Source: Alphaproteobacteria bacterium AO1-B
Lineage (GTDB): Bacteria; Pseudomonadota; Alphaproteobacteria; Rhizobiales; Stappiaceae
Assembly (NCBI GenBank): GCA_001890945.1
Contig: MLAX01000006.1
Coordinates: 248,001 to 312,000 of the forward strand
DNA length: 64,000 nt
Direction: 5' to 3'
Shown here: one piece after another, positions 1,171 through 24,024 of the stretch
How the letters are laid out: each line of letters begins with the position of its first letter
How positions within the stretch are numbered: position 1 is the first letter of the stretch
The notes under the pieces: model-generated
What the model saw: the letters and a program-made list of their open reading frames with translations, nothing else
The model's database searches: none
What the model was told of the DNA's origin: nothing
Position numbers and translations under genes: made by a program

Positions 1171-1229
1171 TGACCTTGCAAACACAGGCTGGCAAAGGCG
1201 CCGCCTGCAAACATGAACACAAATGGCTT

Positions 1230-1253
1230 CCGGGCGGGCATACTGCCGCCCGG
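1230..1253 (+). other. Stem-loop between clpV and the regulator
   Basis: CCGGGCGG (1230-1237) pairs perfectly with CCGCCCGG (1246-1253) over an 8-base loop. No T-run follows, so this is not a standard intrinsic terminator. It may stabilise or attenuate the transcript between clpV and the activator gene. Confidence 0.4.
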
Positions 1254-1287
1254 GGGATGAGTTCACATCTGTGCAGGCGGAAACCGA

Positions 1288-2907: not shown

Positions 2908-3001
2908 CAGCGGTCGGGCCATCAGGAGACACCGCAGTCTGAAACTCTTTGGGTTTAGCGCGAAAAAACAGGATGCCACTGGTGAAGGTCCCGATTCACT
3001 G

Positions 3002-4462: not shown

Positions 4463-4475
4463 TCCAAAAATTGGA

Positions 4476-10175: not shown

Positions 10176-10382
10176 CAACATGCTTTCGAAATTTCTAGGC
10201 AGGGGCCGGTGTGCCTTTTCGTTCAAGGACCGGCCAGAAAATCCGCCGTGAAGAGGTGCGAGCTATATTTCACACTCGCGCCCCCAAGAAAAGCCCCGGC
10301 GGGGCAAAAGCGGATGGGTAGTTGCTTAGGATATAGGGATTTGAGGCGGATGAAGCTAGGTGTAAACGCTACTCCGTCTGCC

Positions 10383-10446
10383 GTCCCGGCCTTGGGCCGG
10401 GACCCCTGCTTGTTTGAAACAAACGGCCCCGGCGCAAGGCCGGGGC
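10383..10446. repeat. Intergenic paired-hairpin repeat, copy 1
   Basis: Two GC-rich palindromes in the 343-base gap between metG and the YeiH-type gene: GTCCCGGC...GCCGGGAC at 10383-10403 and GGCCCCGGC...GGCCGGGGC at 10425-10446, separated by a small TTGTTTGAAACAA hairpin. The same arrangement recurs at 21128-21183 and 35779-35839, so it is a dispersed REP-like element. The rest of the gap shows no gene. Confidence 0.7.
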
Positions 10447-10518
10447 GGCAAGGTTGGAGCGAGCCACCACAGGTTGGTCAGCTTGTCGCTATTCCTGATC
10501 CAGTTCCCGCCCGAAAGA

Positions 10519-11514
10519 TCACCCGATTAACCAGATCCCGGCAAGCACGAAAAGGGCCAGGAACACCGTCTGCGTGACCACCATCCAGATCGCCGGGCCG
10601 CCGACTTCCAGCAGTTTCGGGATCGAGGTTTTCATGCCAACGGCGGCGATCGCTGCAAGCAGCGCCCAACGGGAAACTTGGCTTGCCCCATCCTTAACGA
10701 TCTCCGGGATCAGTCCGAAGGAATTGAAGGTTGCAAGGATCAGGAAAGCGACGACAAAAAGCGGCATCAGAGGCGGCCGGGCAGCACCGGGTTCTGTGCC
10801 CTTGCGCAGGATAAGCGCTGCGATCAACACGATGGGGGCCAGCAGGGTGACCCGGATCAGCTTCACCAGCGTCGAAAGATCACCGGTTTCTTCTGAAACG
10901 GAAAAGCCAGCGCCGACCACTTGTGCAACATCGTGAATGGTGCCGCCCAGGAAAACGCCCGTCGCATCCCGATCGAGCCCGAGTGAGGCGGTCAGGATCG
11001 GATAGAAGATCATGGCGAGTGTGGACAGCACAGTCACGGTGATGACGGTAAACGCAAGGTCTCGCTCGGCATGCTCACGTTTTGGTAAAATCGAACCGAT
11101 GGCCATCGCAGCCGAAGCTCCGCAAATGGCGACCGCACCGCCAGACAGGAACGAAAACAAGCGGTCCTTGCCAAAGAGGTTTCCGATCAGGAGTGAAAAG
11201 CCGATGGTCGCCAGGACCCCGGCAACAACGAGAGCCAGAAACGGCAGTCCAAGCGCCTGAACCATATCGACGCTGATCCGAACACCCAGCAAGGCGACCC
11301 CAATCCGCAACAGCGTGCGCGCAGAAAAGGCGATGCCGTCTGCAGTGCGTTTTTCCTCCGAGAGAAAGTTCAGCGGCATTCCAAGAAGGATCGCCATCAG
11401 CATCGCGGGCGCACCATAGTGCTCGTTCAAAAACTGCGCCGAGATCGCGACCAGGCCGGCAATCGCTATTCCCGGGAACAATTCGTGAGCCCGGTGTTTG
11501 ATCTTGTCGATCAT
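10519..11514 (-). CDS. YeiH/UPF0324-family integral membrane protein
   Basis: A 331-residue polytopic inner-membrane protein with about ten hydrophobic segments. The family signature motifs are seen: SGGAVAICGASAAMAI in the middle and GGTIHDVAQVVGAG after it. The family (PSE/YeiH, conserved hypothetical integral membrane protein 698) is poorly characterised, and export of sulfur compounds has been proposed for relatives. AAGGAC precedes the ATG. It starts 15 bases after the stop of the cytochrome c peroxidase gene, so the two are likely one operon. Confidence 0.85.
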   Translation of the reverse strand: MIDKIKHRAHELFPGIAIAGLVAISAQFLNEHYGAPAMLMAILLGMPLNFLSEEKRTADGIAFSARTLLRIGVALLGVRISVDMVQALGLPFLALVVAGVLATIGFSLLIGNLFGKDRLFSFLSGGAVAICGASAAMAIGSILPKREHAERDLAFTVITVTVLSTLAMIFYPILTASLGLDRDATGVFLGGTIHDVAQVVGAGFSVSEETGDLSTLVKLIRVTLLAPIVLIAALILRKGTEPGAARPPLMPLFVVAFLILATFNSFGLIPEIVKDGASQVSRWALLAAIAAVGMKTSIPKLLEVGGPAIWMVVTQTVFLALFVLAGIWLIG

Positions 11515-11529
11515 TTTTCGTCCTTGTTC

Positions 11530-12828
11530 TTATTTGTCGATCGGAAGACCGCTTGGAACGGAAGTTGGAATGCCAAAGGGCGGAAAAGCTACGGAATCTG
11601 CGCCTGTAAGCGCTTTCATAAAATCTACTATAGCATCAATTTCACTGTCAGAAAGGTCAATGGTCTCAACGTCGCGAAAAAGACTTTGGCGGGCCATTTC
11701 ACGGCTGTCCGACCAAACGACAAAATCAATGGTTTCCAACCAGGGAGCTGAGGGTAGGGCGGCAAGTTTTGGGTCCCATATCACCAGCATCCCGTCCGGA
11801 TCAAGATGGTGGCGTATGATCCCCTCCAGTGTAGGGTAGGCGCCGTTGTGCCCGTATGGCGCGGTGAGTTCGACATTGCGCAGCATCGGCGTGCGGAACC
11901 GGTATGCGTCCTCCAGGCTGTCGCTTTCGGCCATGCGGCCTGTGTCCCGAACCATCGGGTCAAACCGGCGGGTCCGGCCCGGTCCGAAAGGCGGCAGCCC
12001 GAGCGCGTGGAACTTCTGGTCACTCAAAAGACTTCCGGAATGGCAACTTGAACAACCGGCTTTTCCGTAAAAAAGATCGAGACCCTGTATTTGTTTCGCC
12101 GAGAGCGCCTCTGTGTCTCCGGCCAGATAGCGGTCAAAGGGACTGTCGAAGCTCTGCCATTCGATTGCCTGAAAGGCGGCAAGAGCGTTGGCAATCTCAA
12201 CGATCGTGACGTCTTCGGCTGACTCAATATGGTCGAAAGCTTCGATAAACCTCTGACCATATTCAGGAATCACGCGCACCCTTTTGGCAAGGATCGGCCA
12301 GGCCGCATCGATCCGGTCGTGGACCGCACCGGCAATCTCGTTTTCTTTCGGGTTTCCGGACATCTCGAATTGCGCCACAAGCGGGAACACAGCCTGGGCA
12401 GCGAGCAGCGAGTTGAAGCCTTCCGGCAGCCACTCTTCCGCGGGTGAATTGAAGCCGTTCTCATATGTGTCGGCAACGGAAATGCGGCCGTCATGAAACA
12501 GGGTGTGAAGGTCTTTTGCGCCCAAATTCCAAAGGCCTGGCGCATTGCGCGGAATCCGTTTCTTAATCCGGCTGTCACCGGTGCCGGCCATGCGATCCGG
12601 ACCGAGGCCTTCGCCGCCCTCGCCAATGCCGAGTGACAGGCCGTCACCGGTTCCAAACTCTGGATGATGGCAGGTTGCGCAGGCAATATTCCTGTTGCCG
12701 GACAGGATCTTGTCGTAAAAGAGAAGTTGGCCGAGCGCGGCCTGCTTGCGATCAAATTCGAGAAAGTTGGATTGGGTCAGAGGTGCTGGCAATTCAGCCG
12801 CGGCAGCCGGCAATATGCAGGCGGACAA
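11530..12828 (-). CDS. Di-haem cytochrome c peroxidase (MauG/CCP family); 5' end uncertain
   Basis: Periplasmic peroxidase reducing hydrogen peroxide with electrons from cytochrome c. Two c-type haem sites are seen: CATCH in the N-terminal half and CSSCH in the C-terminal half, with the usual CCP phrases FHDGRIS, TPMLRNVELTAPYGHNG and FMKALTG. The N-terminus is a problem. A signal-like run HAFLVPSLLSACILPAAAA precedes the mature part, but no ATG, GTG, TTG or CTG lies in frame just before it. The listed TTG (12828) cuts that signal. The open frame runs to 13299, but its upstream part is antisense to the Sel1 gene. LLSAC would also fit a lipobox. Co-transcribed with the YeiH-type gene. Confidence 0.75.
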   Translation of the reverse strand: MSACILPAAAAELPAPLTQSNFLEFDRKQAALGQLLFYDKILSGNRNIACATCHHPEFGTGDGLSLGIGEGGEGLGPDRMAGTGDSRIKKRIPRNAPGLWNLGAKDLHTLFHDGRISVADTYENGFNSPAEEWLPEGFNSLLAAQAVFPLVAQFEMSGNPKENEIAGAVHDRIDAAWPILAKRVRVIPEYGQRFIEAFDHIESAEDVTIVEIANALAAFQAIEWQSFDSPFDRYLAGDTEALSAKQIQGLDLFYGKAGCSSCHSGSLLSDQKFHALGLPPFGPGRTRRFDPMVRDTGRMAESDSLEDAYRFRTPMLRNVELTAPYGHNGAYPTLEGIIRHHLDPDGMLVIWDPKLAALPSAPWLETIDFVVWSDSREMARQSLFRDVETIDLSDSEIDAIVDFMKALTGADSVAFPPFGIPTSVPSGLPIDK

Positions 12829-12849
12829 AAGCGAAGGAACGAGGAAAGC

Positions 12850-13344
12850 ATGACGCCACTTAGATCTGCGGTCGCCGCACTTTGCATCCTTGTCGGTGCG
12901 GCAATGACCAGCCCCGCGCGTGCGGAGATCGAAGAAGCGCGCGATCTGATGGAATCCGGGAAATTCGAAGAAGCCAAGGATGCGCTTTGGCCAGCGGCCC
13001 GATCCGGAAATGCCGACGCTGAGGAGCTGATCGGTGTCATGTATGCCATGGGGCTTGGCGTTGAGCGGGACGATCAAAGGGCGTTTGAGTGGTACCTCAG
13101 AAGCGCCATGAAGGGGCATCCCGGCGCCCAGTCCGGTGTCGGCTGGTACTACGAGATTGGACGGGGCATGCCGGCACCCGATCTGGTGCGGGCCTACATG
13201 TGGTACACACTGTCTGCCATCGGCGGCGATCCGGACGCGGCGATTTCGCTTGAAGAGGTGGTCAAAAAGATGACCGCGGAAGAGATCGAAAAAGCGCATA
13301 TACTTGTCGCCGACTACAAGGTCTGGATGTACCCGTTCCGCTGA
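12850..13344 (+). CDS. Secreted Sel1-repeat (TPR-like) protein
   Basis: A 164-residue protein with a Sec signal peptide (MTPLRSAVAALCILVGA...ARA, then EIEEAR) and two to three Sel1-like helical repeats with the AXXGXGXXXXYXXGXGV pattern (for example IGVMYAMGLGVERDD, GVGWYYEIGRG). Such proteins act as periplasmic interaction scaffolds, and the partner is unknown. GAGGAAAGC precedes the ATG. The gene is divergent from the cytochrome c peroxidase, and the two 5' ends overlap or abut with almost no promoter space. Confidence 0.8.
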   Translation: MTPLRSAVAALCILVGAAMTSPARAEIEEARDLMESGKFEEAKDALWPAARSGNADAEELIGVMYAMGLGVERDDQRAFEWYLRSAMKGHPGAQSGVGWYYEIGRGMPAPDLVRAYMWYTLSAIGGDPDAAISLEEVVKKMTAEEIEKAHILVADYKVWMYPFR

Positions 13345-13405
13345 TTTTGATCAGGGAATGGCTTGGGAGACAAGGCCATCGCCAGATCAAAAAGATGGCA
13401 AGTTA

Positions 13406-13437
13406 AGAGCCCGGCAAATTGCCGGGCTCTATTTTAT
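13406..13437. terminator. Intrinsic terminator between the Sel1 gene and the TRAP operon
   Basis: AGAGCCCGGCAA (13406-13417) and TTGCCGGGCTCT (13419-13430) are perfect complements, followed by ATTTTATCTT. It ends the plus-strand Sel1 transcript and, read in reverse, can end the TRAP/monooxygenase operon whose last gene stops at 13439. Confidence 0.85.
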
Positions 13438-13438
13438 C

Positions 13439-14497
13439 TTAGTTCAGGTCTGCGTCGCGCGCGCCGTTTACGTCTGCCTCGGCAGCTGCCACGGCTTCCT
13501 CCAGCGCGCCGAAGATTTCGCCGCCGCGGTCAACGTTTTCCTTGAACCAATCGAAGACCGGGCTTGCAGCTTCTTTGAAGGCTGCCTTTTCGGCCGGGGT
13601 TGGAACGTAAAGATCACCACCACCTGCGACAAAGTCCTCATAGGCCTGGATCGACTTGCGCTTCGGAGATGCAAAGGTTGCCTGTTGCAGGGCATAGAAG
13701 CCATCAACAACCACCCGGCGCATGTCTTCCGGCATGGAGAGGAACTTCTCGTTGTTCATCCACCACAGAGCGCCCATGTAGGCATGTCCGTCGAGAGTGA
13801 CGTATTGCAGTCCGGCATCCGGGAATTTCATGCCCATGATGTCGGTGATGCCGTTCTTGGAGCCTTCAACAACGCCGGTCTGGAAGGACGTGAACAGCTC
13901 CGGCCACGGGATCGGGGTCGGAGACGCACCAAGTGCTTTGACAAGAACCTGCGGTAGGTCGGCAACGACAGTCCGGATCTTCAGGCCTTCCATGTCAGCA
14001 GGTGCCGCAATACGGCGTTTTGTGTTGGCGAAGTTCCGCCAGCCGCCGGTGTTGCCGATGGTCATCAGGCGGATCATGTTGTCGCTGTCTTCCAGCGCCA
14101 TGTTGCGCATGGTGCGGGTGAAGTCGCCGGACAGGACGTGTTCTGCGATCCGGTCGTCAGACATCATGTATGGCAGGTCGAGAACCTGAACATACGGGAA
14201 GATGCCGGATGCGCCGCCGGATGTGGAGATGTAAATATCGATGGCACCGCCTGCAACGCCTTGCAGGCACTCAGCGCCGTTGGAGCACAGCTGCGTACCG
14301 ATAAAGAGTTCTACTTCGATGGCGCCGTTAGAGGCGGCTTCCACGAAGTTCTTGAATACGACAAGACCATCATAGTCTTCATCGTTTTCATTGGAGTTTG
14401 CAGTGGCGCGCAGGGTGTAGTCGGCCGCCGTAGCACTTAATGCGGACCCGGCGAGCATCGCCGCGACCGTCAAGGATTTAAGGGCAGATTTGAGCAT
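13439..14497 (-). CDS. TRAP transporter substrate-binding protein (DctP family)
   Basis: Periplasmic receptor of a tripartite ATP-independent transporter. A signal peptide (MLKSALKSLTVAAMLAGSALSATAA) is followed by a DctP fold: TLRATANSNEN near the N-terminus and MEGLKIRTV, whose arginine normally clamps an acidic group of the ligand, then ELFTSFQTGVVEGSKNG. The ligand is probably an organic acid or sulfonate. TRAP receptors for isethionate and taurine show that sulfonates can be bound this way. It is the last gene of a six-gene operon, 27 bases after DctM and just before a terminator. Confidence 0.9.
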   Translation of the reverse strand: MLKSALKSLTVAAMLAGSALSATAADYTLRATANSNENDEDYDGLVVFKNFVEAASNGAIEVELFIGTQLCSNGAECLQGVAGGAIDIYISTSGGASGIFPYVQVLDLPYMMSDDRIAEHVLSGDFTRTMRNMALEDSDNMIRLMTIGNTGGWRNFANTKRRIAAPADMEGLKIRTVVADLPQVLVKALGASPTPIPWPELFTSFQTGVVEGSKNGITDIMGMKFPDAGLQYVTLDGHAYMGALWWMNNEKFLSMPEDMRRVVVDGFYALQQATFASPKRKSIQAYEDFVAGGGDLYVPTPAEKAAFKEAASPVFDWFKENVDRGGEIFGALEEAVAAAEADVNGARDADLN

Positions 14498-14524
14498 TGA
14501 AGTCCTCCCTAGGTAAAGCTCAGA

Positions 14525-15814
14525 TCAGTTGGCAAATCCGGTCAGACGCGGGATCGTCATCGAAAGTGCCGGAATGTAAGTGATCAAGAAGATCACTGCG
14601 ATCTCCACCGCCAGAAACGGCAGAATAGCCTTGGATATCGTCTCCACCCGTTCCTTGGAGACAGATGCCGCAACAAAAAGGACCAGCCCCATCGGAGGCG
14701 TTGCCAGGCCAATGGTCAGGTTCACACTCATGATGATGGCAAAATGGATCGGATCAACACCCAATTCGAGGAAGATCGGTCCAAGGATAGGTCCAAGAAT
14801 GATGATCGCCGGTCCGGCATCCAGGAACATGCCCACTATGAAAAGGAGCAGGTTGATCAGGAACAACAGCAGGAGCGGGTTTTCTGTGAGGCTGAGTACG
14901 AAATCGGCCATGATTTGCGGCGCGTAGCTGAGGCTGACAACGGTCTTGAAGGCCATGGCGGCCCCGACCAGAAGCAGGACAACGGCTGATGTGATGCCAG
15001 CGCGGTTCAAAACGCCCGGAATTTCATGGGGCTTCAGTGTTCTAAGGACAAACAGACCGATGAAGAGGGCATAGGCCACAGCAACGGCAGCCGCTTCTGT
15101 CGGTGTGAAGACACCAGCCAGAATGCCCCCGAGGATGATCACCGGGGTCAAAAGCGGAAAGAAGGCCTTGAGTGATGCCTGGCCACGTTCGCCCCAGGTC
15201 GACTTCCGGGAAGCGATCGGGAAGTCATATTTGTCGGCCATGAACTTGACCATCAGCATCAAGCCGACGCCGACCATGACACCGGGAACGATACCGGCAA
15301 GGAACAGCGCAGCAACGCTTTCGCCCATCACATAGGCGTAGATGATCATGATGCCGGATGGCGGAATGATCGGGCCAATCACCGAGGAGGCTGCCGTGAT
15401 TGCAGCGGCGAATTTGCGGGTATAGCCCTGTTTTTCCATGGCCGGGATCAGCATGGATCCGAGCGCTGAGGTGTCGGCAACCGCCGAGCCGGAGAGACCG
15501 GCAAACAGCATCGACGACAGGATGTTGACGTGCGCCAAGCCTCCGCGCAGGTGGCCCATCAGCGCCTGGGAAAACTCCACCAGCCGCATGGTGATCCCGC
15601 CCTTGTTCATCAACTCGCCTGCGAGCATGAAAAACGGAATCGCCATGAGAGGAAAAGAGTCCATCCCGTTGTAGACGTTGCGGTAGAGAAGGGTGATGTC
15701 CCGCTCCTGACCGTTCAGCCACAACAGCATGCCGGGTGCTGCGAGCAGTCCGAAGAAGACCGGCAACCCGATCATCAGGAAGACGAGGAAGACGGGAAGG
15801 AACCAGATCAGCAT
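14525..15814 (-). CDS. TRAP transporter large permease (DctM family)
   Basis: The 429-residue membrane subunit that moves substrate with sodium or proton gradient energy. It has about twelve hydrophobic segments with the family phrases PVFFGLLAAPG, PLMAIPFFMLAGELM and GGLAHVNILSSMLFAGLSGSA. The start overlaps the stop of DctQ by a single base, indicating translational coupling. It lies in the same operon as the SsuD-like monooxygenase, so both probably serve one compound. Confidence 0.93.
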   Translation of the reverse strand: MLIWFLPVFLVFLMIGLPVFFGLLAAPGMLLWLNGQERDITLLYRNVYNGMDSFPLMAIPFFMLAGELMNKGGITMRLVEFSQALMGHLRGGLAHVNILSSMLFAGLSGSAVADTSALGSMLIPAMEKQGYTRKFAAAITAASSVIGPIIPPSGIMIIYAYVMGESVAALFLAGIVPGVMVGVGLMLMVKFMADKYDFPIASRKSTWGERGQASLKAFFPLLTPVIILGGILAGVFTPTEAAAVAVAYALFIGLFVLRTLKPHEIPGVLNRAGITSAVVLLLVGAAMAFKTVVSLSYAPQIMADFVLSLTENPLLLLFLINLLLFIVGMFLDAGPAIIILGPILGPIFLELGVDPIHFAIIMSVNLTIGLATPPMGLVLFVAASVSKERVETISKAILPFLAVEIAVIFLITYIPALSMTIPRLTGFAN

Positions 15815-16404
15815 CAGTCTGCCCCCGCCATGTCGATATCCGGAATGCCCGGAAGGTCATCCTTGCCACCAATCAAGGAAATCAAGCTGCGCAAGATGAG
15901 CTCAACATTGACCAGTGCGAGCAAGATGACGCCAACGAACATCGACATCATCATCCAGCTGCGCGGCACCCGGATCCACTCGGTCAACGTCAAATTGCCC
16001 GGAACGTAGAGAGAGGCGGTCGCGAATTTTCCACCAAAACCGGTCACTTCAGCGTAGCCAATCTGAACAGCGACGATCAGCACCACGAACGAGACGCACA
16101 ACAAGAAAAGGGAAAGGACGCTTGCCAGGATTTTGGGCAGCATGATCACCAGCGTGTCGATGGCCACGAACCCGCCGCGCCGGAAGGCGGTCGGCGCCAT
16201 CAAGCCGGTCATCCAGAGCATACAGAAACGGGCGGCCTCATCAGGCCAGGGGAGGGCATTGTTGAACCCATAGCGGGCCACGACCTGTATCAGGATCGCA
16301 ACCACCATCAACGCAACGGCGACGACGCCGATCCCTCGTCCGATCCGCAAAAGATGCGAATTGACGAAGGCAAGCGGTTTCAAAACCGCCAGCAATGCCC
16401 CCAT
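15814..16404 (-). CDS. TRAP transporter small permease (DctQ family)
   Basis: A 196-residue four-helix inner-membrane subunit that pairs with DctM. The typical ...RYGFNNALPWPDEAARFCMLWM motif region is present between helices 1 and 2. GGGAGGAG lies before the ATG. The gene begins 74 bases after the flavin reductase gene on the same strand and overlaps DctM at its stop. Confidence 0.9.
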   Translation of the reverse strand: MGALLAVLKPLAFVNSHLLRIGRGIGVVAVALMVVAILIQVVARYGFNNALPWPDEAARFCMLWMTGLMAPTAFRRGGFVAIDTLVIMLPKILASVLSLFLLCVSFVVLIVAVQIGYAEVTGFGGKFATASLYVPGNLTLTEWIRVPRSWMMMSMFVGVILLALVNVELILRSLISLIGGKDDLPGIPDIDMAGAD

Positions 16405-16478
16405 ACGGGCTCCTCCCTGGTACGTCCATTATGGCAGGGGCGATGGTCGTCCCGGCCTTTGCTTATCTGTGCACGCTC

Positions 16479-16994
16479 TTACTTTGGCGCGATTTGTCCA
16501 AGTTTGCCGGAAAAAAATGTCAGCGCATCCCCGGTGCGCATCTCAGCCTGCATCACTTGGCCCAGAACAATCAAATGATCGCCACCCTCGTAGGCCGCGA
16601 ACCGCTTGCATTCGAAGCGCGCCAGGCAGTTCTCGATCAGCGGTACGTTGTTCTCGCAAAGCTGGTATGTCAGCTGATCAAAAGCATGTGCGTTCTTGAC
16701 GAACCCATTGCAAATCTCCGCCTGCTCGTGGCTCAGAACATGGATTGCATAGCGATCGGCTTGCTCAAAGTAGCGGAACCGGCGCGAGCCCTTGTCCGGC
16801 ATCCAGAGGACGAGCGGCGGGTCCATGGAGACGGAAGAAAAGCTGTTGGCGGTAATCCCGACCGGGCCGTCTTCAGAATGGGTGGTCACAACAGTAACGC
16901 CGGTCGCAAATCGGCCGAAGGCATCTCGCAAAAGCCGGGAGTTTTCAGAATGCGGCGCGAACGTCACGGTGTGATCTGCATTTTGCATTGTCAT
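16479..16994 (-). CDS. Flavin reductase (FMN reductase component, SmoA-like by context)
   Basis: A 171-residue NAD(P)H:flavin oxidoreductase of the flavin reductase-like (FMN-binding split barrel) family that supplies reduced FMN to a partner monooxygenase. Seen: RDAFGRFATGVTVVT near the N-terminus, GITANSFSSVSMDPPL (FMN phosphate/isoalloxazine contacts) and the C-terminal HLIVLGQV strand. Its ATG overlaps the stop of the aldo-keto reductase gene by one base. With the SsuD-like enzyme two genes upstream it forms a two-component monooxygenase. The likeness to SmoA of sulfoquinovose desulfurisation is inferred from gene context. Confidence 0.88.
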   Translation of the reverse strand: MTMQNADHTVTFAPHSENSRLLRDAFGRFATGVTVVTTHSEDGPVGITANSFSSVSMDPPLVLWMPDKGSRRFRYFEQADRYAIHVLSHEQAEICNGFVKNAHAFDQLTYQLCENNVPLIENCLARFECKRFAAYEGGDHLIVLGQVMQAEMRTGDALTFFSGKLGQIAPK

Positions 16995-17884
16995 CAGGGA
17001 ACCTCGTTTCCAAGGGCTGCCTCGTAGAGGCGGTACCAGGTTTCGCGGTCAAGTTTGACTTTGAGCGCGTCCGAGATTTTCCCGATACGCTCCAGATTGT
17101 TGGTGCCCATGACCGGCATGAGGTGTGCCGGATGCGCCAAAAGGAACCCGACGGCAACTGCTGAGCGGTCAACACCGAAGGAACTTGCGATCTCGTCCAT
17201 CACGGACCCGAGCTTGCCGCCTTCCGAAATCAGAGATCCGCCACCAAGCGGTGACCAGGCCATAAGTTTTGTGCCGAGCCGCTGATGGAATGCGAGATCG
17301 CCATTGGTGAACGGAGAAATCTCCTTTAGGGAGATCTCGATCTGGTTGGTCACCAGCGTGTTGGACATGGCGGATTGAAGAAGTTCCCAGTCCCACGGAC
17401 GAAAGTTCGAAACGCCGATGTTCCGGACCTTACCGGACTTCACCAGATCATCCAGCGCAGCGCCCGTTTCATGATGGTCCATGAACGGATCCGGGCGGTG
17501 AATCAGAAGAAGGTCGACCGTCTCGATGGCCATTTCGGTGAGAGAAATCTCGACCGATTTCTCAATATGAGCCCGCGATGTGTCGTAGTACTTCACCTTG
17601 GCATCGGCATACCGGCCACACGGAGCGACGATGTCACACTTGGTGACGATTTCCATTTTGTCGCGCAGGGACGGGTTGGCTTTCATCGCGCCGCCCAGCA
17701 CGGCCTCGGCGCCGTAATCGCCATAGATATCGGCCTGATCGAAGGTCGTGATGCCCTGATCAAGACAGGATTGGATCTTCCGCTCCACATGCGCCGGGGA
17801 GGTGTCCGCATCGTCGCCAAGCCGCCACATGCCATAGATGAGGCGGGAAAATTCAAGCGTGTCGTTAAGTTTGACGCGATCCAT
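16994..17884 (-). CDS. Aldo-keto reductase (SmoB-like candidate)
   Basis: A 296-residue NAD(P)H-dependent reductase with the TIM-barrel AKR fold. The catalytic tetrad is visible: Asp and Tyr in FDQADIYGDYG, Lys in IVTKCDI and His in LLIHRPDPFMD. The phrases GVSNFRPWDWELLQ and NQIEISLKEISPF place it with YdhF-type reductases. In the sulfo-SMO pathway an AKR of this type (SmoB) reduces 6-oxo-glucose to glucose after sulfonate removal. That role is inferred from its position between the monooxygenase and flavin reductase, with one-base overlaps at both ends. Confidence 0.88.
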   Translation of the reverse strand: MDRVKLNDTLEFSRLIYGMWRLGDDADTSPAHVERKIQSCLDQGITTFDQADIYGDYGAEAVLGGAMKANPSLRDKMEIVTKCDIVAPCGRYADAKVKYYDTSRAHIEKSVEISLTEMAIETVDLLLIHRPDPFMDHHETGAALDDLVKSGKVRNIGVSNFRPWDWELLQSAMSNTLVTNQIEISLKEISPFTNGDLAFHQRLGTKLMAWSPLGGGSLISEGGKLGSVMDEIASSFGVDRSAVAVGFLLAHPAHLMPVMGTNNLERIGKISDALKVKLDRETWYRLYEAALGNEVP

Positions 17885-19038
17885 TAGCGGCGGACTCCAT
17901 TGCCGAGCGGTGTTGCAGGGGTTTCGGCCGGAACGCGGCCGTAAGCTTCGGGAAGCGAACAGGTTTTCAGGTTTGGCATGACGCGGGCACCGAAGTGCTT
18001 GGCTTCTTCTTCATGCGGGTAGCCGGAGAAGATGAACGCGCGGATGCCCATTTTCTGATAGGACTCGATCTTGGACATCACCTGATCGGTGGAACCGACA
18101 AGTGCCGCACCACAACCGGAGCGGGCCCGGCCAACACCGGTCCAAAGGTTCGGCTCGATGTAACCAAATTCATCCGCGATTTCGCGGTTCTTGGATTGGT
18201 GACTGACGCCAAGAGACTTTGCGTCGAGCGCCCGTTCGCGGATGGCTGTGCCTTTGTCATCTTCCAGCTTGGAAACGATGTAGTCGGCGTATTCCTGCGC
18301 TTCCTTTTCCGTGTCGCGCACGATCATGTGGACGCGCAGACCGTAGTCGAGAGTGCGATCGTATTTCTCGGCGACGGCATGTACGGCCTTCATGCGGCCT
18401 TCCAGCTCTTCGATCTTTTCCGGCCACATCAAATAGACATCGCAGTGCTGGCCGCAAAGATCCAGGGCGTCTGGCGAATAGCCGCCAAAATAAAGAAGGG
18501 GGCCGCCGGTCTGGTAAGGCCGGGCCGGATCCGTGGTCAGGCCTTTGAAATTGTAGATCTGACCTTCGTAGTTGATCTCGTCCTGCGTCCAGGCCTGCTT
18601 CAGGATTTCAACCACTTCGCGGGAGCGCTGGTAACGGTAGCCGCTGTCGGCTTCTTCGCCCGGAAAGTTGGAGGAGATGATGTTGACCGTCAGCCGGCCT
18701 TCCAGCATGTGGTCGAGCGTCGCGATGGTCCGCGCCAGCATGATCGGCTGCATTTCGCCACAGCGGACAGCCGCCAGCAGGTTGATCTTGTCGGTAATCG
18801 GCGCGCAGCCAGCGACGAAACTCAAGGTGTCCTGTCCGACCTGATAGGAAGACGGGCAAAGAATATTCCGGAAGCCCTGGGCCTCGGCTGTTTTGACGAT
18901 GGAAGAGCAGTGATCCCATGAGGACCGCAAGTGGCCTTCCGGCACACCGAGGAATTGATAGTCGTCCGAGCACAGCGCCGCAAACCAGGACACTTCAGCT
19001 GCATCTAGGTCCGGCGAAGTTACGGGAACTACGGTCAT
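17884..19038 (-). CDS. SsuD-like FMNH2-dependent sulfonate monooxygenase (LLM family; SmoC-like candidate)
   Basis: A 384-residue luciferase-like monooxygenase. Residues typical of the SsuD branch are present: the early cysteine region IVKTAEAQGFRNILCPSSY, KINLLAAVRCGEMQPIMLARTIATLDHMLEGRLTVNIISS, and the active-site arginine/lid region GYRYQRSREVVEIL. SsuD-type enzymes use FMNH2 and O2 to split the C-S bond of sulfonates into aldehyde and sulfite. It is the first gene of the operon, preceded by GGGGAGGAGAG, and diverges from a GntR regulator. Sulfoquinovose is the most attractive substrate given the neighbours. Other alkanesulfonates remain possible. Confidence 0.88.
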   Translation of the reverse strand: MTVVPVTSPDLDAAEVSWFAALCSDDYQFLGVPEGHLRSSWDHCSSIVKTAEAQGFRNILCPSSYQVGQDTLSFVAGCAPITDKINLLAAVRCGEMQPIMLARTIATLDHMLEGRLTVNIISSNFPGEEADSGYRYQRSREVVEILKQAWTQDEINYEGQIYNFKGLTTDPARPYQTGGPLLYFGGYSPDALDLCGQHCDVYLMWPEKIEELEGRMKAVHAVAEKYDRTLDYGLRVHMIVRDTEKEAQEYADYIVSKLEDDKGTAIRERALDAKSLGVSHQSKNREIADEFGYIEPNLWTGVGRARSGCGAALVGSTDQVMSKIESYQKMGIRAFIFSGYPHEEEAKHFGARVMPNLKTCSLPEAYGRVPAETPATPLGNGVRR

Positions 19039-19131
19039 TTAAGGCTCTCCTCCCCAATATTTTTTGGGCATTTCGTTTGTTTTCGAAGGCCTTCATTTGG
19101 ACCTTCACTTTTTCCTTGCTTATCACCCGCC

Positions 19132-19145
19132 TTGATGTAAATCAA
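19132..19145. promoter_or_regulatory. Candidate GntR operator in the divergent promoter region
   Basis: TTGATGTAAATCAA is an inverted repeat (TTGAT/ATCAA, 4-base spacer) in the 146-base region between the monooxygenase and GntR genes, followed by another ATCAA at 19153-19157. Its place 40 bases before the GntR start suggests a regulator site, without experimental support. Confidence 0.4.
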
Positions 19146-19184
19146 TAGTGTATCAATTTTCGAAAGACAGATCGCCGCACCGCA

Positions 19185-19895
19185 ATGCCAACCACCTCGC
19201 AGACCTCAAATGCCCTGCCTCTTTATGTCCAGATAAGTGAGCTTCTCATTCGGGATATTGCGGCCGGCCGCCTTCTTGACGGAGAGCGTTTGCCGCCGGA
19301 ACGGGACATGGCCGAAGAGCTTGGGATCTCCATCGGTACGCTACGAAAAGCGCTGGCTGATCTTACGGAAAAAGGCCTATTGGAGCGGATACAGGGCTCG
19401 GGAAACTACATACGTCAGGGCGGAACAAACGAAAGCGTCTACGCGATGTTCCGTCTGGAGCTGCTGTCCGGTGGTGGACTGCCAAAAGCCGACATTCTTG
19501 AGGTTGACCGCGTTTTCAAGCCGGAAGATCTGCCGGTGTTCGGCACGAGCCGTGAGGGCACGCGCATCCGCCGTCTGCGCTACCTCAACGAAACAATCAT
19601 CGCGGTGGAGGAAATCTGGCTGGATGGGGATTGCGGTTTTGTCCGCAAAGACCAGCTTTCAGATTCGCTTTACCGTTTCTATCAAAAGCAGCTTGGCTTT
19701 TGGATCGTTCGCGCCGAAGACAGGGTGACGATCAAGGCCGTGCCGGACTGGGCGCCAGAGGTTTTTACCAAGGCACCCGGCACTCTCACAGGATACATCG
19801 AACGGTTCAGCTGGGCGGACAAGCCCGAGCCGGTCGAGTTTTCGCGCACCTGGTTCGATACCGACAGGGCGCATTACGTTCAAAGACTCAAATAG
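19185..19895 (+). CDS. GntR-family transcriptional regulator (HutC/UTRA type)
   Basis: A 236-residue regulator. Residues 10-75 form the winged helix of GntR proteins (PLYVQISELLIRDIAAGRL ... LPPERDMAEELGISIGTLRKALADL). The remaining 150 residues are a UTRA ligand domain of the HutC subfamily, whose ligands are often sugar or amino-acid derivatives. It is divergent from the monooxygenase operon and 38 bases upstream of the Gfo/Idh gene, so it is the likely local regulator of both. Confidence 0.9.
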   Translation: MPTTSQTSNALPLYVQISELLIRDIAAGRLLDGERLPPERDMAEELGISIGTLRKALADLTEKGLLERIQGSGNYIRQGGTNESVYAMFRLELLSGGGLPKADILEVDRVFKPEDLPVFGTSREGTRIRRLRYLNETIIAVEEIWLDGDCGFVRKDQLSDSLYRFYQKQLGFWIVRAEDRVTIKAVPDWAPEVFTKAPGTLTGYIERFSWADKPEPVEFSRTWFDTDRAHYVQRLK

Positions 19896-19933
19896 GCGGG
19901 CGCCAAACGATCCGCCGACTTAAGGAGAGCCAA

Positions 19934-21058
19934 ATGCCTGCGAAGGTAAAATACGGTGTCATCGGCTGTGGCATGATGGGTCAGGAGCACTTGCGCAACA
20001 TCGCGCTGCTGCCGGACACCGAAGTGGTGGTTATTTTCGAGCCGGATGTCGGTATGGCGGAGCAAGCCGCCCGGTTTGCGCCGCATGCCAAGCTCGTCGA
20101 TTCCGTCGACGCTGTCTTAAACGTCGAAGAGCTGGATTGTATCCTGATCGCAAGCCCCAACCACTGCCATGTGCCGCAGATGGAGGAAATCCGTCAGAAA
20201 CGGCCGCTGCCGTTGCTGGTTGAAAAGCCGCTGTTCACCGACCCGAAGGATATTGCAGCGCTTGAGGCCTTCAAGGCATCGTATCCAGCCCCGGTCTGGG
20301 TCGCGATGGAATACCGGTACATGCCGCCGATCGCAGCCCTGATCGAACAGGCGGAACAGGCAACGGGCGGCATCAAGATGCTGACCATCCGAGAGCATCG
20401 CTTTCCGTTTTTAGACAAGGTCGGATCCTGGAACCGGTTCAACCGTTACTCCGGCGGGACATTTGTCGAAAAATGCTGTCACTTTTTCGATCTGATGCGG
20501 CTGATCATCAAGAGCGAACCTGTCCGTGTGATGGCCTCAGCGGGGCAGGACGCCAACCACAAAGAAGAGCTCTATGATGGCGAAACGCCGGACATCCTCG
20601 ACAACGGGTATGTGATCGTTGATTTCGAAAACGGCGCCCGCGCAATGCTGGAACTGTGCATGTTCGCAGAAGGCTCCCGTTACCAGGAGGAAGTGTCTGC
20701 GGTCGGGCCGGCTGGCAAGATCGAGGCCTTGGTCCCGGGGCCGGGCCGGTTTTGGCCAAGAGATTTGGGCGAGCCGCCTGTTCCCCAACTGATCGTGTCG
20801 CCCCGCAATCCAAAAGGCCCTCGCCAGATCGACATTCCTGTTGATCCGACCATCCTGGACGCCGGAGACCACAACGGCTCGACCTTCTATCAGCACCAGC
20901 ATTTTGTCGCTGTTGTTCGCGGCGAAAAGACCGACGTGGAAGTCTCTTTGGAAGATGGGCGCAAAGCCGTCGAGATGGGGCTTGCCGCCCAGCAGTCTGC
21001 GCGCACCGGTCAGGCCGTTGCTGTCATCGGACGGGCTGTATCTTCCATGGCGTGCTGA
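19934..21058 (+). CDS. Gfo/Idh/MocA-family NAD-dependent protein; candidate NAD-dependent sulfoquinovosidase (GH188-like)
   Basis: A 374-residue protein with an N-terminal Rossmann fold (GVIGCGMMGQEH, residues 7-18) and the family EKP motif (LLVEKPLF), then the C-terminal alpha/beta domain with GGTFVEKCCHFFDLMRL, where H and D match the usual catalytic pair. Members oxidise sugars at C3 or use NAD transiently for glycoside cleavage. The second mode is published for NAD-dependent sulfoquinovosidases found in desulfurisation clusters without a classical GH31 enzyme, and this cluster fits that picture. A plain sugar dehydrogenase is the alternative. AAGGAGAG precedes the ATG at 19934, which is preferred over the longer open frame. 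Confidence 0.85.
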   Translation: MPAKVKYGVIGCGMMGQEHLRNIALLPDTEVVVIFEPDVGMAEQAARFAPHAKLVDSVDAVLNVEELDCILIASPNHCHVPQMEEIRQKRPLPLLVEKPLFTDPKDIAALEAFKASYPAPVWVAMEYRYMPPIAALIEQAEQATGGIKMLTIREHRFPFLDKVGSWNRFNRYSGGTFVEKCCHFFDLMRLIIKSEPVRVMASAGQDANHKEELYDGETPDILDNGYVIVDFENGARAMLELCMFAEGSRYQEEVSAVGPAGKIEALVPGPGRFWPRDLGEPPVPQLIVSPRNPKGPRQIDIPVDPTILDAGDHNGSTFYQHQHFVAVVRGEKTDVEVSLEDGRKAVEMGLAAQQSARTGQAVAVIGRAVSSMAC

Positions 21059-21127
21059 AGTCGGTTGGCTGAATGCCATGGTCTTCCCACGCGAAGGACC
21101 TCATTCCGCCTGAAATTGTGTTTGTTC

Positions 21128-21183
21128 GGTCCCGGCCTTGAGCCGGGACCATTTGATTTTAGGCCCCGGCTCAAGGCGGGGGC
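21128..21183. repeat. Intergenic paired-hairpin repeat, copy 2
   Basis: GGTCCCGGC-CTTGA-GCCGGGACC (21128-21150) and GGCCCCGGC...GGGGGC (21162-21183) repeat the layout of 10383-10446, including the CTTGAGCCGGGAC core shared with 35779-35799. It lies in the 287-base gap after the Gfo/Idh gene. Nothing else is recognised in that gap. Confidence 0.7.
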
Positions 21184-21345
21184 GGCTACTACCAAAACAT
21201 CTGAAAAAAGCGCGCCGGTACTTTTTGATAAAGAATTTCAAAGATCACGGCTGACCCTGCTGTGAAAATGCCATAACGTTCGGGCTAAGGTATTGAGAAC
21301 CCGCCGGAAGAAGCTGGGCCGTCCGATATTTTGGGAGGTTTTGCT

Positions 21346-24024
21346 GTGCGTAAAGTTGTTTCCGTCGCCCTGTCATCTGCCCTGGTGCTGCAAACCGTTC
21401 TTTTGAATGGTGCTCTGGCAGCACCGGCTGTCACCACAGCGAACGTGAACTTCCGTCAGGGGCCCGGAACCGGGTTTGGCTCGCTCGGCACCGTGCCGAA
21501 CGGCACCCCCGTCGAACTTCAGGATTGCGATGACACCGGCGCTTGGTGCTCGGTGACCTACAACGGTCAGAACGGATTCGTCAGTGGCAATTACCTGCAA
21601 CTGACTGAAGCCGAGGATACGACCGGCTGGCCGCGCACCTACGATACAGATGCCGGCGCGACACTTGTCCTCTACCAGCCTCAGGTCACCGAATGGACGG
21701 ACTTCAAGACCCTGGATGCCCTGATCGCCGCGGAATACATCAAGGACAAGGATGCGGCCCCCGTGTTTGGCGTGATCGGTGTCAGCGGCAAAACCGCTGC
21801 CGATCCGGAAGCCGGCTTGATTGATGTTTCGGACATTCAGGTGACCCGTCTCGATTTTTCCGCGCTCGACCGGACGGCGCTGTCCGATCTGTCTCTGCAA
21901 GTGGGCAAGATCCTGCCGACCGGTGTGGTGACAGTGAAGGAAGACCGCATTACCGCAAACCTGGCGGAATATAAGCGAATGGAGGATGTGGATGGCCTGA
22001 ACGCCGAGGCGCCGCCGCTCTTCATCTCCTATGAGCCGGCAATCTTGGTGCAAACAGAAGGCGAACCCATCCTTGCCCCGGTCAAGGGCGATCAGGGCCT
22101 GAGCTTCGTGGTCAACACCAACTGGGACATCCTGAAACCGGATGAAGGCTCGGACTATTATCTCCGGGATGAAAAATCCTGGCTCAAATCATCAGAGTTG
22201 ACTGGCAACTGGGAAGCGGTGACGGACCTGCCGGACCCGATCACCAATTTGCCGGACGACGACAACTGGAAAGAAACCCGGGAGGCAATCCCGCCACAAG
22301 CCTTTCCGGACAATAAAGCACCCAAGGTCATCTATTCCGATAAACCGGCTGAAATGATCGTCTTCGAGGGGGAACCGAAACTGGAACCGGTGCCAGGGGG
22401 GGATCTGGAATGGGCCTCCAACACCGACCACGATGTTTTTTTCCTGAAAACCACATCGACCTGGTACATCCTCTTGTCAGGACGCTGGTTCAAGTCGGCG
22501 TCTCTCGACGGGCCCTGGGCGTTCACCACGCCTGACATGCCGTCGGACTTCCTGAACATCCCCGAAGATGCACCTTACTATTCGGTCCGGTCGTCCATTC
22601 CGGGCACGTCCGAAGCCTCACAGGCCCGGCTGAAGGCCAGCATTCCAACGACGGCGCGCGTTGAGCTGGGGTCGGTCAGCGCGGATGTCGCCTATGCAGG
22701 CGATCCGGAGTTCACGCAGATCGAGGGCACATCGATGTCCTATGCGGTGAACACCAACGATCAGGTCATTCAGGTCGGCGCAAAATACTACGTGCTCCAG
22801 GATGGCGTCTGGTTCGTCGGTGACAGCCCGCAAGGACCGTTTGTCGTGGCGCAAGCCGTGCCGGAAGAGATCTACACCATTCCGCCATCCTCGCCGGTCT
22901 ACAACGTGACCTATGTGCGGGTCTATGAGACCGAACCCAATGCCGTCTGGTACGGCTACACCATGGGCTATGTGACCGGGTTTCTGGCATGGGGCGTCTT
23001 TGTCTACGGCACGGGCTGGTACTACCGCCCATGGTACCGTCCGGGCATCCGGCCGATCTACTTCCCGCGGCCGGTGACCTACGGGATCGGTGCCTACTAC
23101 AATCCGCTTCGCGGCACTTATGGCCGGTACGGCTATGCCTACGGCCCGCGCCGGGGCATTGCAGGCGGGGGCATCTACAATCCGCGCACGGGTGGCTATA
23201 TCCGCGGCGGAGCAATCAGCGGCCCGCGGGGCAGTGCGGGTTTCATCTCCGCCTATAATCCCCGCACAGGCAATCGCGTCGTCGCAGGTGGTGCCCGCGG
23301 CATCTACGGCTCCTGGGGTGGGGCCGTCGTGTCCGGCCCGCAGTGGTCGCGCACCCGTGAGGTCAGGGCATCGGCGGCAAACCGGTGGCAGCAACAGGGT
23401 GGCCCCGGCCGCGCGGCAACGCTGAACCGGCGGGGCGGGGACGTCTTTGCGGGCCGCGATGGCAGTGTCTATCGCCGAGACGGACAGAACTGGCAGAAGT
23501 TTGAAGGCGGGCGCTGGAACAGGGTCGATGCGCCCTCGCGCGACGCTCTTCAAAATCGGGCACGCGATCTCGGGGCAGGAGCCGCGATTGGAGCTGGTGC
23601 CGGAGCCGCGCTTGCCAACCGGCCGGCCGGAGATCGGATCCAGAACCGGCCAAACGCCGGACAACGTCCGAATGCGGGCCAAAGACCCAATGCCGGGCAA
23701 AGACCGAACGCGGGCCAACGTCCGAACAATGGCCAGAGGCCCAATGCCGGCCAAAGGCCGAGCAATCAAAGACCAAATGTGCAGCGGCCAGCCAACCGGC
23801 CGGAGACACGCCCGGCTCAACGGCCCGCCCAACGCCCCGCGACCCGGCCAGCACAGCGGCCGCAAGCACCGGCACATCTCAATCGAGACCGTGCTGCGCG
23901 TGAGGCCGGCAACCGTCAGGTCAACCGCCAGCGCAACGTGCAGAGGTCCCGCCCGCAACAGGCCCGCCCGCAACGGGGAGGCGGTGGCCGCGCCGCCCGC
24001 GGTGGCGGCGGCCGCCGGAGGTAG
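21346..24024 (+). CDS. Secreted multi-domain protein: SH3 domain, beta-rich body, RPNAGQ tandem repeats, Arg/Gly-rich tail
   Basis: About 892 residues from the GTG at 21346, which has GGGAGG upstream and starts the signal peptide MRKVVSVALSSALVLQTVLLNGALAAP. Then a bacterial SH3 domain (about 28-85; VTTANVNFRQGPGTGFGSLG), a long region with three similar blocks each holding a PVFGEP/YAGDPEF-like turn, a YY-L-W-segment and GxWxxAxxLPxP (about 210-520), a Tyr/Gly/Pro-rich segment (530-690), six RPNAGQ hexapeptides, and a very basic Arg/Gln/Pro/Gly tail. It probably sits in the periplasm or on the surface and binds peptidoglycan or other polyanions. No enzyme motif is seen. Confidence 0.75.
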   Translation: MRKVVSVALSSALVLQTVLLNGALAAPAVTTANVNFRQGPGTGFGSLGTVPNGTPVELQDCDDTGAWCSVTYNGQNGFVSGNYLQLTEAEDTTGWPRTYDTDAGATLVLYQPQVTEWTDFKTLDALIAAEYIKDKDAAPVFGVIGVSGKTAADPEAGLIDVSDIQVTRLDFSALDRTALSDLSLQVGKILPTGVVTVKEDRITANLAEYKRMEDVDGLNAEAPPLFISYEPAILVQTEGEPILAPVKGDQGLSFVVNTNWDILKPDEGSDYYLRDEKSWLKSSELTGNWEAVTDLPDPITNLPDDDNWKETREAIPPQAFPDNKAPKVIYSDKPAEMIVFEGEPKLEPVPGGDLEWASNTDHDVFFLKTTSTWYILLSGRWFKSASLDGPWAFTTPDMPSDFLNIPEDAPYYSVRSSIPGTSEASQARLKASIPTTARVELGSVSADVAYAGDPEFTQIEGTSMSYAVNTNDQVIQVGAKYYVLQDGVWFVGDSPQGPFVVAQAVPEEIYTIPPSSPVYNVTYVRVYETEPNAVWYGYTMGYVTGFLAWGVFVYGTGWYYRPWYRPGIRPIYFPRPVTYGIGAYYNPLRGTYGRYGYAYGPRRGIAGGGIYNPRTGGYIRGGAISGPRGSAGFISAYNPRTGNRVVAGGARGIYGSWGGAVVSGPQWSRTREVRASAANRWQQQGGPGRAATLNRRGGDVFAGRDGSVYRRDGQNWQKFEGGRWNRVDAPSRDALQNRARDLGAGAAIGAGAGAALANRPAGDRIQNRPNAGQRPNAGQRPNAGQRPNAGQRPNNGQRPNAGQRPSNQRPNVQRPANRPETRPAQRPAQRPATRPAQRPQAPAHLNRDRAAREAGNRQVNRQRNVQRSRPQQARPQRGGGGRAARGGGGRRR
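23647..23754 (+). repeat. Six 18-bp tandem repeats encoding RPNAGQ
   Basis: Six consecutive 18-bp units (23647-23754) encode RPNAGQ, with one RPNNGQ. The units differ at wobble bases (CGT/AGA/AGG for Arg), so the peptide repeat is old enough to have diverged in DNA while kept at protein level. Confidence 0.9.

Follow-up and report, generated by a model that had tools for sequence, protein, structure and literature searches.

Block 13439-21058 of a 64,000-nt stretch of DNA (hereafter the window) is best read as a desulfonating, sulfo-SMO operon for the utilisation of sulfoquinovose (SQ) with a TRAP transporter as its importer; we put the probability of this reading at about 0.87. The window comes from a marine bacterium, Alphaproteobacteria bacterium AO1-B (GCA_001890945.1, contig MLAX01000006.1, positions 248,001 to 312,000 of the forward strand). 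The block combines genes for a predicted SQ monooxygenase, a predicted 6-dehydroglucose reductase and a flavin reductase with TRAP genes, a GntR/UTRA regulator and a GH188 homologue, and in related genomes the same transporter is associated with two non-homologous SQ pathways. The output of SQ is given as 10 billion tons a year in the accessible part of PMC10755693, and SQ import is described as poorly characterised in that of PMC8873060.

The operon and its enzymes

The following features were identified in the region:

10519-11514, minus strand, YeiH-family membrane protein, candidate sulfite exporter (PF03601; TIGR00698 below cut-off)
11530-12855 (start uncertain), minus strand, di-haem cytochrome c peroxidase/MauG-family protein with two CxxCH motifs (PF03150)
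12850-13344, plus strand, Sel1-repeat protein, 164 aa, whose start resembles a signal peptide by eye (PF08238)
13406-13430, plus strand, terminator-like hairpin where the DctP and Sel1 genes converge (11 pairs, 8 of them G-C; T-rich tail on the plus strand only)
13439-14497, minus strand, TRAP solute-binding protein DctP, predicted SQ or SQ-glyceride binder (PF03480)
14525-15814, minus strand, TRAP large permease DctM, 429 aa (PF06808; TIGR00786)
15814-16404, minus strand, TRAP small permease DctQ, 196 aa (PF04290)
16479-16994, minus strand, flavin reductase, putative SmoA role, 171 aa (PF01613; best NCBIfam match FerA, below cut-off)
16994-17884, minus strand, SmoB-type aldo-keto reductase, predicted to convert 6-dehydroglucose to glucose, 296 aa (PF00248, PDB matches)
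17884-19038, minus strand, SmoC/SquD-type SQ monooxygenase, predicted to depend on FMNH2 and O2, 384 aa (PDB matches, PF00296)
19185-19895, plus strand, GntR/UTRA regulator, 236 aa (PF00392 and PF07702)
19934-21058, plus strand, GH188 NAD-dependent sulfoquinovosidase, SqgA type, predicted from PDB matches and kept residues, 374 aa

The gene order in the preliminary description, from the monooxygenase through the two reductases to DctQ, DctM and DctP, was found as claimed, as were the divergent GntR regulator and Gfo/Idh gene. The one-base overlaps that it reported are present at 17884, 16994 and 15814, but the flavin reductase and DctQ genes are separated by 74 bases and the DctM and DctP genes by 27. 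Likewise, a strong hairpin does lie just past DctP, where a terminator of the operon had been placed, but it is listed for the plus strand and has no T-run on the strand of DctP; as a plus-strand element it would terminate Sel1, which converges on DctP. The region contains 20 terminator-like sites versus 12.4 ± 4.0 in shuffled sequences, while a sigma-70 promoter scan gave two sites versus 4.4 in shuffles. An Rfam scan of positions 9000-22000 revealed no RNA family at gathering score.

The clustering of the genes is far beyond chance, as follows from its conservation across 80 related loci. The SmoB and GntR genes are kept in all 80 of them, the flavin reductase gene in 78 and the GH188 gene in 77; two of the five missing cases (L062 and L065) are at contig ends. 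It should be mentioned that a plasmid locus (L093) carries SmoC and TRAP genes, with neither SmoB nor flavin reductase annotated.

The SmoC-type enzyme, the adjoining SmoB-type reductase and the PF01613 flavin reductase are all present in one operon. For comparison, a genome was scored as sulfo-SMO positive in a 2026 survey (PMC13372026, accessible part) when it encoded both SmoB and SmoC. Closeness to SsuD had been named beforehand as a finding that would speak against a sulfo-SMO assignment; over residues 1-383 the monooxygenase matches PDB entries 7olf and 7oh2 with 691 and 687 bits, and SsuD-type entries with only 177-187 bits. The aldo-keto reductase matches 7bby/7bbz with 410 bits, and the next entry with 208. 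We take 7olf/7oh2 to be SmoC and 7bby/7bbz to be SmoB, names that the PDB titles do not carry. These matches support the assignment of the two enzymes as SmoC and SmoB orthologues. The SmoC-like monooxygenase is present in a single copy in the genome.

The preliminary description had also proposed that the Gfo/Idh protein substitutes for the GH31 sulfoquinovosidase, and its homology agrees with this. The protein matches 8zn9 with 560 bits and SqgA (8qc2/8qc3) with 361/359 bits, and it keeps the sugar- and sulfonate-binding residues of GH188: Y136, E164, R166, L170, K172, E189 and H193 of ArSqgA correspond to Y127, E154, R156, L160, K162, E179 and H183 (the aligned Glu, printed in the paper as Glu163, is counted here as 164). 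Equivalents of K107 and H321 are also seen by eye in the alignment. No YihQ/SmoI-type GH31 was found in the genome; the sole GH31 enzyme found there best matches alpha-glucosidases (252 bits for the best match versus 102 for YihQ).

These enzymes also bear on the suggestion that the substrate is a different sulfosugar or a sulfonated glycoside. Degradation is now known for other sulfohexoses as well, e.g., sulfofucose, but the sulfofucose clusters contain different enzymes and ABC transporters (PMC12421959, accessible part), while here the monooxygenase matches 7olf/7oh2 over the full length, the reductase matches 7bby/7bbz and the glycosidase retains the sulfonate and sugar residues of an SQ-specific family. 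We consider this suggestion very improbable.

The TRAP transporter in related genomes

DctP, DctQ and DctM lie together in one operon, and the claim that they replace the ABC importer is supported by three comparative tests. Among 198 genomes of a related family, DctP (E<=1e-80) was found in 73, SmoC (E<=1e-120) in 88 and both in 54 (Fisher p 1.9e-10), the two genes being within 8 kb of each other in 50 of these 54. At the 80 related loci the importer slot is occupied by TRAP genes in 58 cases and by an ABC importer in six; 11 have neither, and in five the contig ends too early. This leaves 75 assessable loci and a non-TRAP comparison set of 17 (the six with ABC and the 11 with neither). The 11 loci have neither TRAP nor ABC genes of the L054 type nearby, although some carry other ABC genes, and one of them (L006) retains DctQ and part of DctM. 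Since 11/75 loci lack both importers and 34/88 SmoC genomes lack this DctP, the TRAP transporter is not essential to the pathway.

In 19 genomes of the related family DctP is present without SmoC, and in 12 of them the TRAP genes are located beside an SQ pathway of the sulfo-EMP type, assigned from family and PDB matches. All 12 have a PfkB kinase and a LacD-type aldolase, and 11 an isomerase as well. In the single example compared, the best PDB match of the kinase is sulfofructose kinase 7ag6. The isomerase reaches the cut-off neither in Pfam nor in NCBIfam and has no PDB match; at another locus its sole NCBIfam match, also below cut-off, is SQ isomerase. The stretch examined in the remaining seven genomes contained partial SMO remnants (four), nothing (two) or, in a distant relative, the kinase only (one). 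The isomerase was not found in the window's own genome, in a search that had no positive control and shows little.

A genome of the window's genus (G633) contains both pathways, each with its own TRAP block; the blocks are 99.97% identical over 2,938 bases and their DctP proteins 100%. Another genome (G638) has the sulfo-EMP type only, with DctP at 93%. We constructed a DctP tree from 87 rows (72 SMO and 15 EMP); left out of the initial 133 were 41 short duplicate loci classed as other, three distant ones (L201, L246, L247) and the duplicate rows L176 and L184. On this tree the partner pathway switches at least seven times, four of the switches being forced by well-supported branches, and a single EMP clade is rejected (p-AU 6.6e-5). 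Tracking SQ pathways built of unrelated enzymes, which was proposed as the mark of an SQ importer, is what these genes are seen to do.

The alternative is that the enzymes are sulfo-SMO but the transporter carries either a sugar acid or a companion sulfonate, namely sulfolactate, DHPS or isethionate, its co-location reflecting shared regulation. Two sulfo-EMP loci, L248 and L232, adjoin genes that we take to be UxaA/SuyAB-like, from galactarate-dehydratase-family matches at L248 and by eye at L232. In the accessible parts of the sources, a known sulfonate-specific TRAP binding protein has isethionate as its ligand (PMC11668362), and TRAP genes of T. muris are proposed to serve sulfolactate (PMC10507020). 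However, no companion-sulfonate pathway is seen among the genes listed around the operon of the window, in close SMO relatives the TRAP slot is filled by an ABC importer of the SBP_bac_1 type, and SQ or its glyceride is the only obvious substrate that the SMO and EMP clusters have in common. Transport of a companion substrate is thus unlikely, and SQ or SQ-glycerol is the ligand that we predict for DctP from its sequence and gene context.

The anion site of TRAP binding proteins in general includes two arginines and an asparagine. R154, R175 and N215 of DctP, as well as W198, are invariant in an alignment of 23 relatives, and the spacing of the first three equals that of the IseP sulfonate site as given in the accessible part of its description. 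The two proteins are distant, DctP matching 8t9t with 96 bits. An AlphaFold model from 23 sequences had a mean pLDDT of 48, and no claim on fold or pocket is drawn from it.

The di-haem, Sel1 and YeiH genes

The locus had been given an end at 13439, but genes that recur beside the operon in relatives (Sel1, di-haem and YeiH) continue it to 10519. The di-haem gene adjoins 46 of the 58 TRAP-type loci and the Sel1 gene 48, versus none of the 17 others for either gene; the YeiH gene is found at all six ABC-type and at 10 of the 58 TRAP-type loci. The closest PDB entry to the di-haem protein is 1nml, followed by other di-haem peroxidases.

The idea that this protein scavenges peroxide leaked by the monooxygenase is weakened, because sulfo-EMP operons without SmoC contain its gene too. 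The gene could merely mark one chromosomal neighbourhood: of 57 cases, 13 have it on a different contig or at a distance of more than 10 kb from DctP and SmoC, and 11 of these 13 concern genomes with one of those two genes. This explanation is weakened in turn, since seven of 12 EMP operons have the di-haem gene in direct contact with that of the kinase and the window's genus has it beside YeiH. Judging by titles, none of the papers listed links such a protein with SQ clusters; if it belongs to the system, it would be a new piece of it.

Proposed pathway and comparison with known systems

In the proposed pathway, DctP would grip SQ or SQ-glycerol in the periplasm via the sulfonate, and DctQM would import it in an ion-coupled manner. 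The GH188 enzyme with its bound NAD+ would then cleave the glyceride inside the cell. SmoC, using O2 and reduced flavin from the flavin reductase, would cut the C-S bond to give sulfite and 6-dehydroglucose, which SmoB would convert to glucose. Sulfite would probably leave the cell through the YeiH-type protein, and the GntR/UTRA protein may act as the sugar sensor. It can further be proposed, with even odds in our view, that DctPQM serves marine Alphaproteobacteria as a pathway-independent module for the uptake of SQ or its glyceride, that it has been exchanged between sulfo-SMO and sulfo-EMP, sometimes with a duplication that supplies the two pathways of a single cell, and that a dedicated periplasmic di-haem/MauG-like protein and its Sel1 partner take part in SQ use, perhaps in peroxide handling or in oxidation of SQ-derived or sulfur species during entry. 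If so, marine metagenomes could be screened for SQ uptake without recourse to the enzymes, and DctP offers a directly testable binding protein.

The enzymes themselves are known. The sulfo-SMO (sulfo-ASMO) systems of Agrobacterium (smo) and Novosphingobium (squ) rely on a monooxygenase, an aldo-keto reductase and a flavin reductase in the same roles to convert SQ to glucose and sulfite; the window differs from them in having TRAP instead of ABC, GH188 instead of GH31, and di-haem and Sel1 genes nearby. The replacement of GH31 by GH188 is not new, being already published for Roseobacter sulfo-SMO clusters (Kaur 2023, PMC10755693), which, as far as its accessible part goes, are of the same kind and contain the same glycosidase family. 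Their cassette is very likely that of the window. The accessible text of Kaur 2023 does not discuss the importer, the peroxidase-like gene or the exporter.

A TRAP importer for SQ appears undescribed: none was found in the searchable open-access literature, judged by title among the matches listed, and the word TRAP is absent from the accessible parts of a 2026 review and a 2026 ISME J survey. Nevertheless, a figure in Kaur 2023, according to its accessible part, depicts the Dinoroseobacter and Phaeobacter gene clusters, and there is a real possibility, somewhat short of even, that a TRAP transporter has already been drawn or named there or elsewhere for Roseobacter sulfo-SMO clusters, so that nothing here would be new.

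Sulfo-EMP clusters with GH188 are known from Arthrobacter AK01 and others. Their enzymes are unrelated to SMO, and the importer proposed for AK01 in the accessible part of PMC8873060 is an ABC system, whereas in relatives of the window's genome such clusters bear the same TRAP block. Finally, IseP (PMC11668362, accessible part) belongs to the DctP family and holds the sulfonate with two Arg and an Asn; its ligand is a C2 sulfonate, while the DctP of the window, distant in sequence but with the same spacing of these residues, is predicted to bind a sugar.

Enzymes and layout of the operon

From its sequence, the locus is predicted to be a conserved marine sulfo-SMO cassette, composed of known enzymes and an importer with a strongly predicted cargo. 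The operon and its divergent partner genes lie where the preliminary description had placed them, and the reported one-base gene overlaps are real, at 17884, 16994 and 15814.

Comparison of the LLM monooxygenase with SmoC and SsuD favoured the proposed assignment to the pathway: its full-length matches to PDB entries 7olf and 7oh2 scored 691 and 687 bits, against 177-187 bits for SsuD-type entries. The aldo-keto reductase gave 410 bits to 7bby/7bbz, with 208 for the runner-up entry. We take 7olf/7oh2 to be SmoC and 7bby/7bbz to be SmoB; the PDB titles are generic. The sulfonate- and flavin-binding residues of SsuD are conserved in the window monooxygenase (alignment, by eye), and the flavin reductase belongs to PF01613. 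Among the matches listed in the SmoC search, Labrenzia/Roseibium are the closest named relatives.

The Gfo/Idh protein gave 560 bits to 8zn9 and 361/359 to the SqgA structures 8qc2/8qc3, with 60 for the next entry. It retains equivalents of Tyr136, Arg166, Leu170, Lys172, Glu189 and His193 of ArSqgA, the roles of which are given in PMC10755693. The sole GH31 match in the 5.2 Mb genome is alpha-glucosidase-like, and the suggestion that a Gfo/Idh protein, here of the GH188 (SqgA) type, stands in the place of GH31 is supported. According to the same source, GH188 is near-universal in sulfo-SMO clusters within the Roseobacter clade (Kaur et al., 2023), and a 2026 survey predicts sulfo-SMO for relatives of Roseobacter members taking up labelled sulfoquinovose (SQ) (PMC13372026). 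Thus, the pairing of a marine SMO pathway and an NAD-dependent glycosidase was already known.

Elsewhere in the window, at 88-5249, consecutive genes for a ClpB/ClpV-like ATPase, an enhancer-binding regulator, a Ser/Thr kinase and a ParA/MinD-like protein (ORF list, by eye) form an arrangement reminiscent of type VI secretion regions.

Importer genes at sulfo-SMO and sulfo-EMP-type loci

One scan of genome contigs (SmoC 82-98% identity) provided the SMO loci, the best 80 of at least 553. TRAP genes were present at 58 of these 80, and an SBP_bac_1 ABC importer lay downstream of the flavin reductase at six, including L051 with a broken ABC set. Neither was found at 11, among them L006 with a split TRAP operon and others with different ABC genes (e.g., L080). 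At five the contig ends too early (L005, L050 and L062 end after DctQ or DctM). Among eight alphaproteobacterial plasmid records, examined from 19 matches, seven carry TRAP (L090-L093, L095-L097) and one, Marinovum L094, carries ABC; a ninth record, Emticicia L098, encodes a SmoC-like protein at 50% and has neither.

Several loci differ in detail. In genome G629 (L006, L253/L254), DctQ and part of DctM stay at SmoC while the remainder with DctP lies about 60 kb off, as if the operon had been split by insertion or rearrangement. In L093 (Qingshengfaniella alkalisoli plasmid) the TRAP genes directly follow SmoC, and neither SmoB nor a flavin reductase is annotated. The SMO operon of L094 (Marinovum algicola pMaD9) includes at 10066-12079 an extra putative dehydrogenase and an acetyl-esterase-like gene, a candidate for deacylating sulfolipid. 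Three ABC-type SMO loci (L211, L221, L225) share a recurrent trio of extra Gfo/Idh-dehydrogenase-like proteins (by eye). At L090 (12370-12684), L010, L012, L017 and L019, the gene after DctP is a small one of the Dabb family (A/B barrel).

The window's family (87 genomes) has DctP in 50 genomes and SmoC in 45; within its own genus SmoC is found in 40/45. In a 198-genome family centred on G331, whose DctP is identical to a Ruegeria DctP, 73 genomes have DctP, 88 have SmoC and 54 have both, at most 8 kb apart in 50 of the 54. Neighbouring genes were inspected in all 19 DctP-only genomes. In 12, the TRAP genes are accompanied by a PfkB kinase together with an aldolase of LacD type, joined by a fucose-isomerase-like protein in 11, a DeoR regulator in 10 and, within the stretch inspected, a GH188 protein in four. 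Four other genomes hold SMO remnants without SmoC, two show no SQ gene, and the last, a distant relative, has a kinase at a distance of 8 kb. Loci L191 and L198 are SMO-like (SmoB, flavin reductase, TRAP), with SmoC not found in their genomes.

The kinase of L202 has sulfofructose kinase as its top PDB match; its aldolase matches, in order, 8tnf, tagatose-bisphosphate aldolases and YihT, and its isomerase has no match in PDB. The sole NCBIfam match of the L248 isomerase is sulfoquinovose isomerase, below cut-off. The sulfo-EMP-type clusters L248, L243, L245 and L187-L205 share this TRAP block and mix enzymes of several kinds: a fucose-isomerase-like putative SQ isomerase, a YihV-like kinase and an aldolase of LacD type. 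UxaA/SuyAB-like genes lie near the L248 cluster. By predicted gene content, L202-type clusters are sulfo-EMP-type, mixed from parts assigned to EMP and EMP2 in PMC9594981.

Genome G638 has the EMP type only (DctP 93%), and G633 has both pathways, with two TRAP blocks 99.97% identical across 2,938 bases (DctP 100%). A DctP tree built from 72 SMO and 15 EMP rows requires at least seven switches of partner pathway, four of them forced by well-supported branches. Pathway labels are clustered (7 changes minimum vs a shuffled mean of 14.2), but placing all EMP rows in one clade is rejected (p-AU 6.6e-5).

Genes downstream of the operon

Three products are encoded downstream of the operon:
Sel1 protein
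di-haem peroxidase/MauG-family protein
YeiH-family protein

The terminator described after the operon was confirmed only as a strong hairpin past DctP (13406-13430); the scan assigns it to the plus strand, and as such it would terminate the convergent Sel1 gene. The peroxidase-like gene and the Sel1 gene divergent from it (11530-13344) recur at many SQ loci of TRAP type, for SMO and EMP alike. Among the best 80 of at least 553 loci, the former lies within 11 kb of SmoC at 46/58 TRAP loci vs 0/17 other assessable ones, and Sel1 occurs at 48/58 vs 0/17; because the sequences are related and not independent, p values for these associations (Fisher p 1.7e-9 for the peroxidase-like gene) are lower than they should be. 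The peroxidase-like gene is nevertheless present at the more distant SMO loci L208 and L218, both of which lack TRAP.

In the 198 genomes, 57 peroxidase-like matches reach at least 478 bits (next 411), and 44 of them have DctP or SmoC no more than 10 kb away. DctP or SmoC is present in 54 of the 56 genomes with a match, against a base rate of 107/198, and the gene touches or overlaps the kinase gene in 7 of the 12 EMP operons. A literature search found no paper that, judged by its title, links SQ clusters with cytochrome c peroxidase or MauG. The protein is likely an extra redox part of the cassette.

YeiH was found at 6/6 ABC-type, 10/58 TRAP and 2/11 other loci (best 80 of at least 553), a distribution that fits its candidate role in sulfite export.

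Predicted cargo and anion site of the importer

The SMO and EMP pathways have their substrate but no core enzyme in common, which makes SQ or SQ-glycerol the most likely cargo of the transporter. The proposal that TRAP takes the place of ABC as SQ importer is supported by its presence at 58 loci (best 80 of at least 553) and beside two SQ pathways, with the cargo predicted. SQ importers named in the available parts of PMC8873060, PMC12421959 and PMC9594981 are ABC systems and the E. coli yih transporters, and SQ import is called poorly characterised in the first of these. A search of the open-access literature, with partial coverage that does not establish absence from print, found no paper that by its title concerns TRAP uptake of SQ.

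R154, R175, N215 and W198 are unchanged across 23 aligned DctPs. As the arginines are general in the DctP family, this conservation shows the presence of an anion site only. In the isethionate-binding DctP-family protein IseP, as described in PMC11668362, Arg156, Arg177, Asn217 and Trp200 hold the sulfonate of isethionate and line the site; by residue numbering, the four residues of the window DctP have the same spacing.
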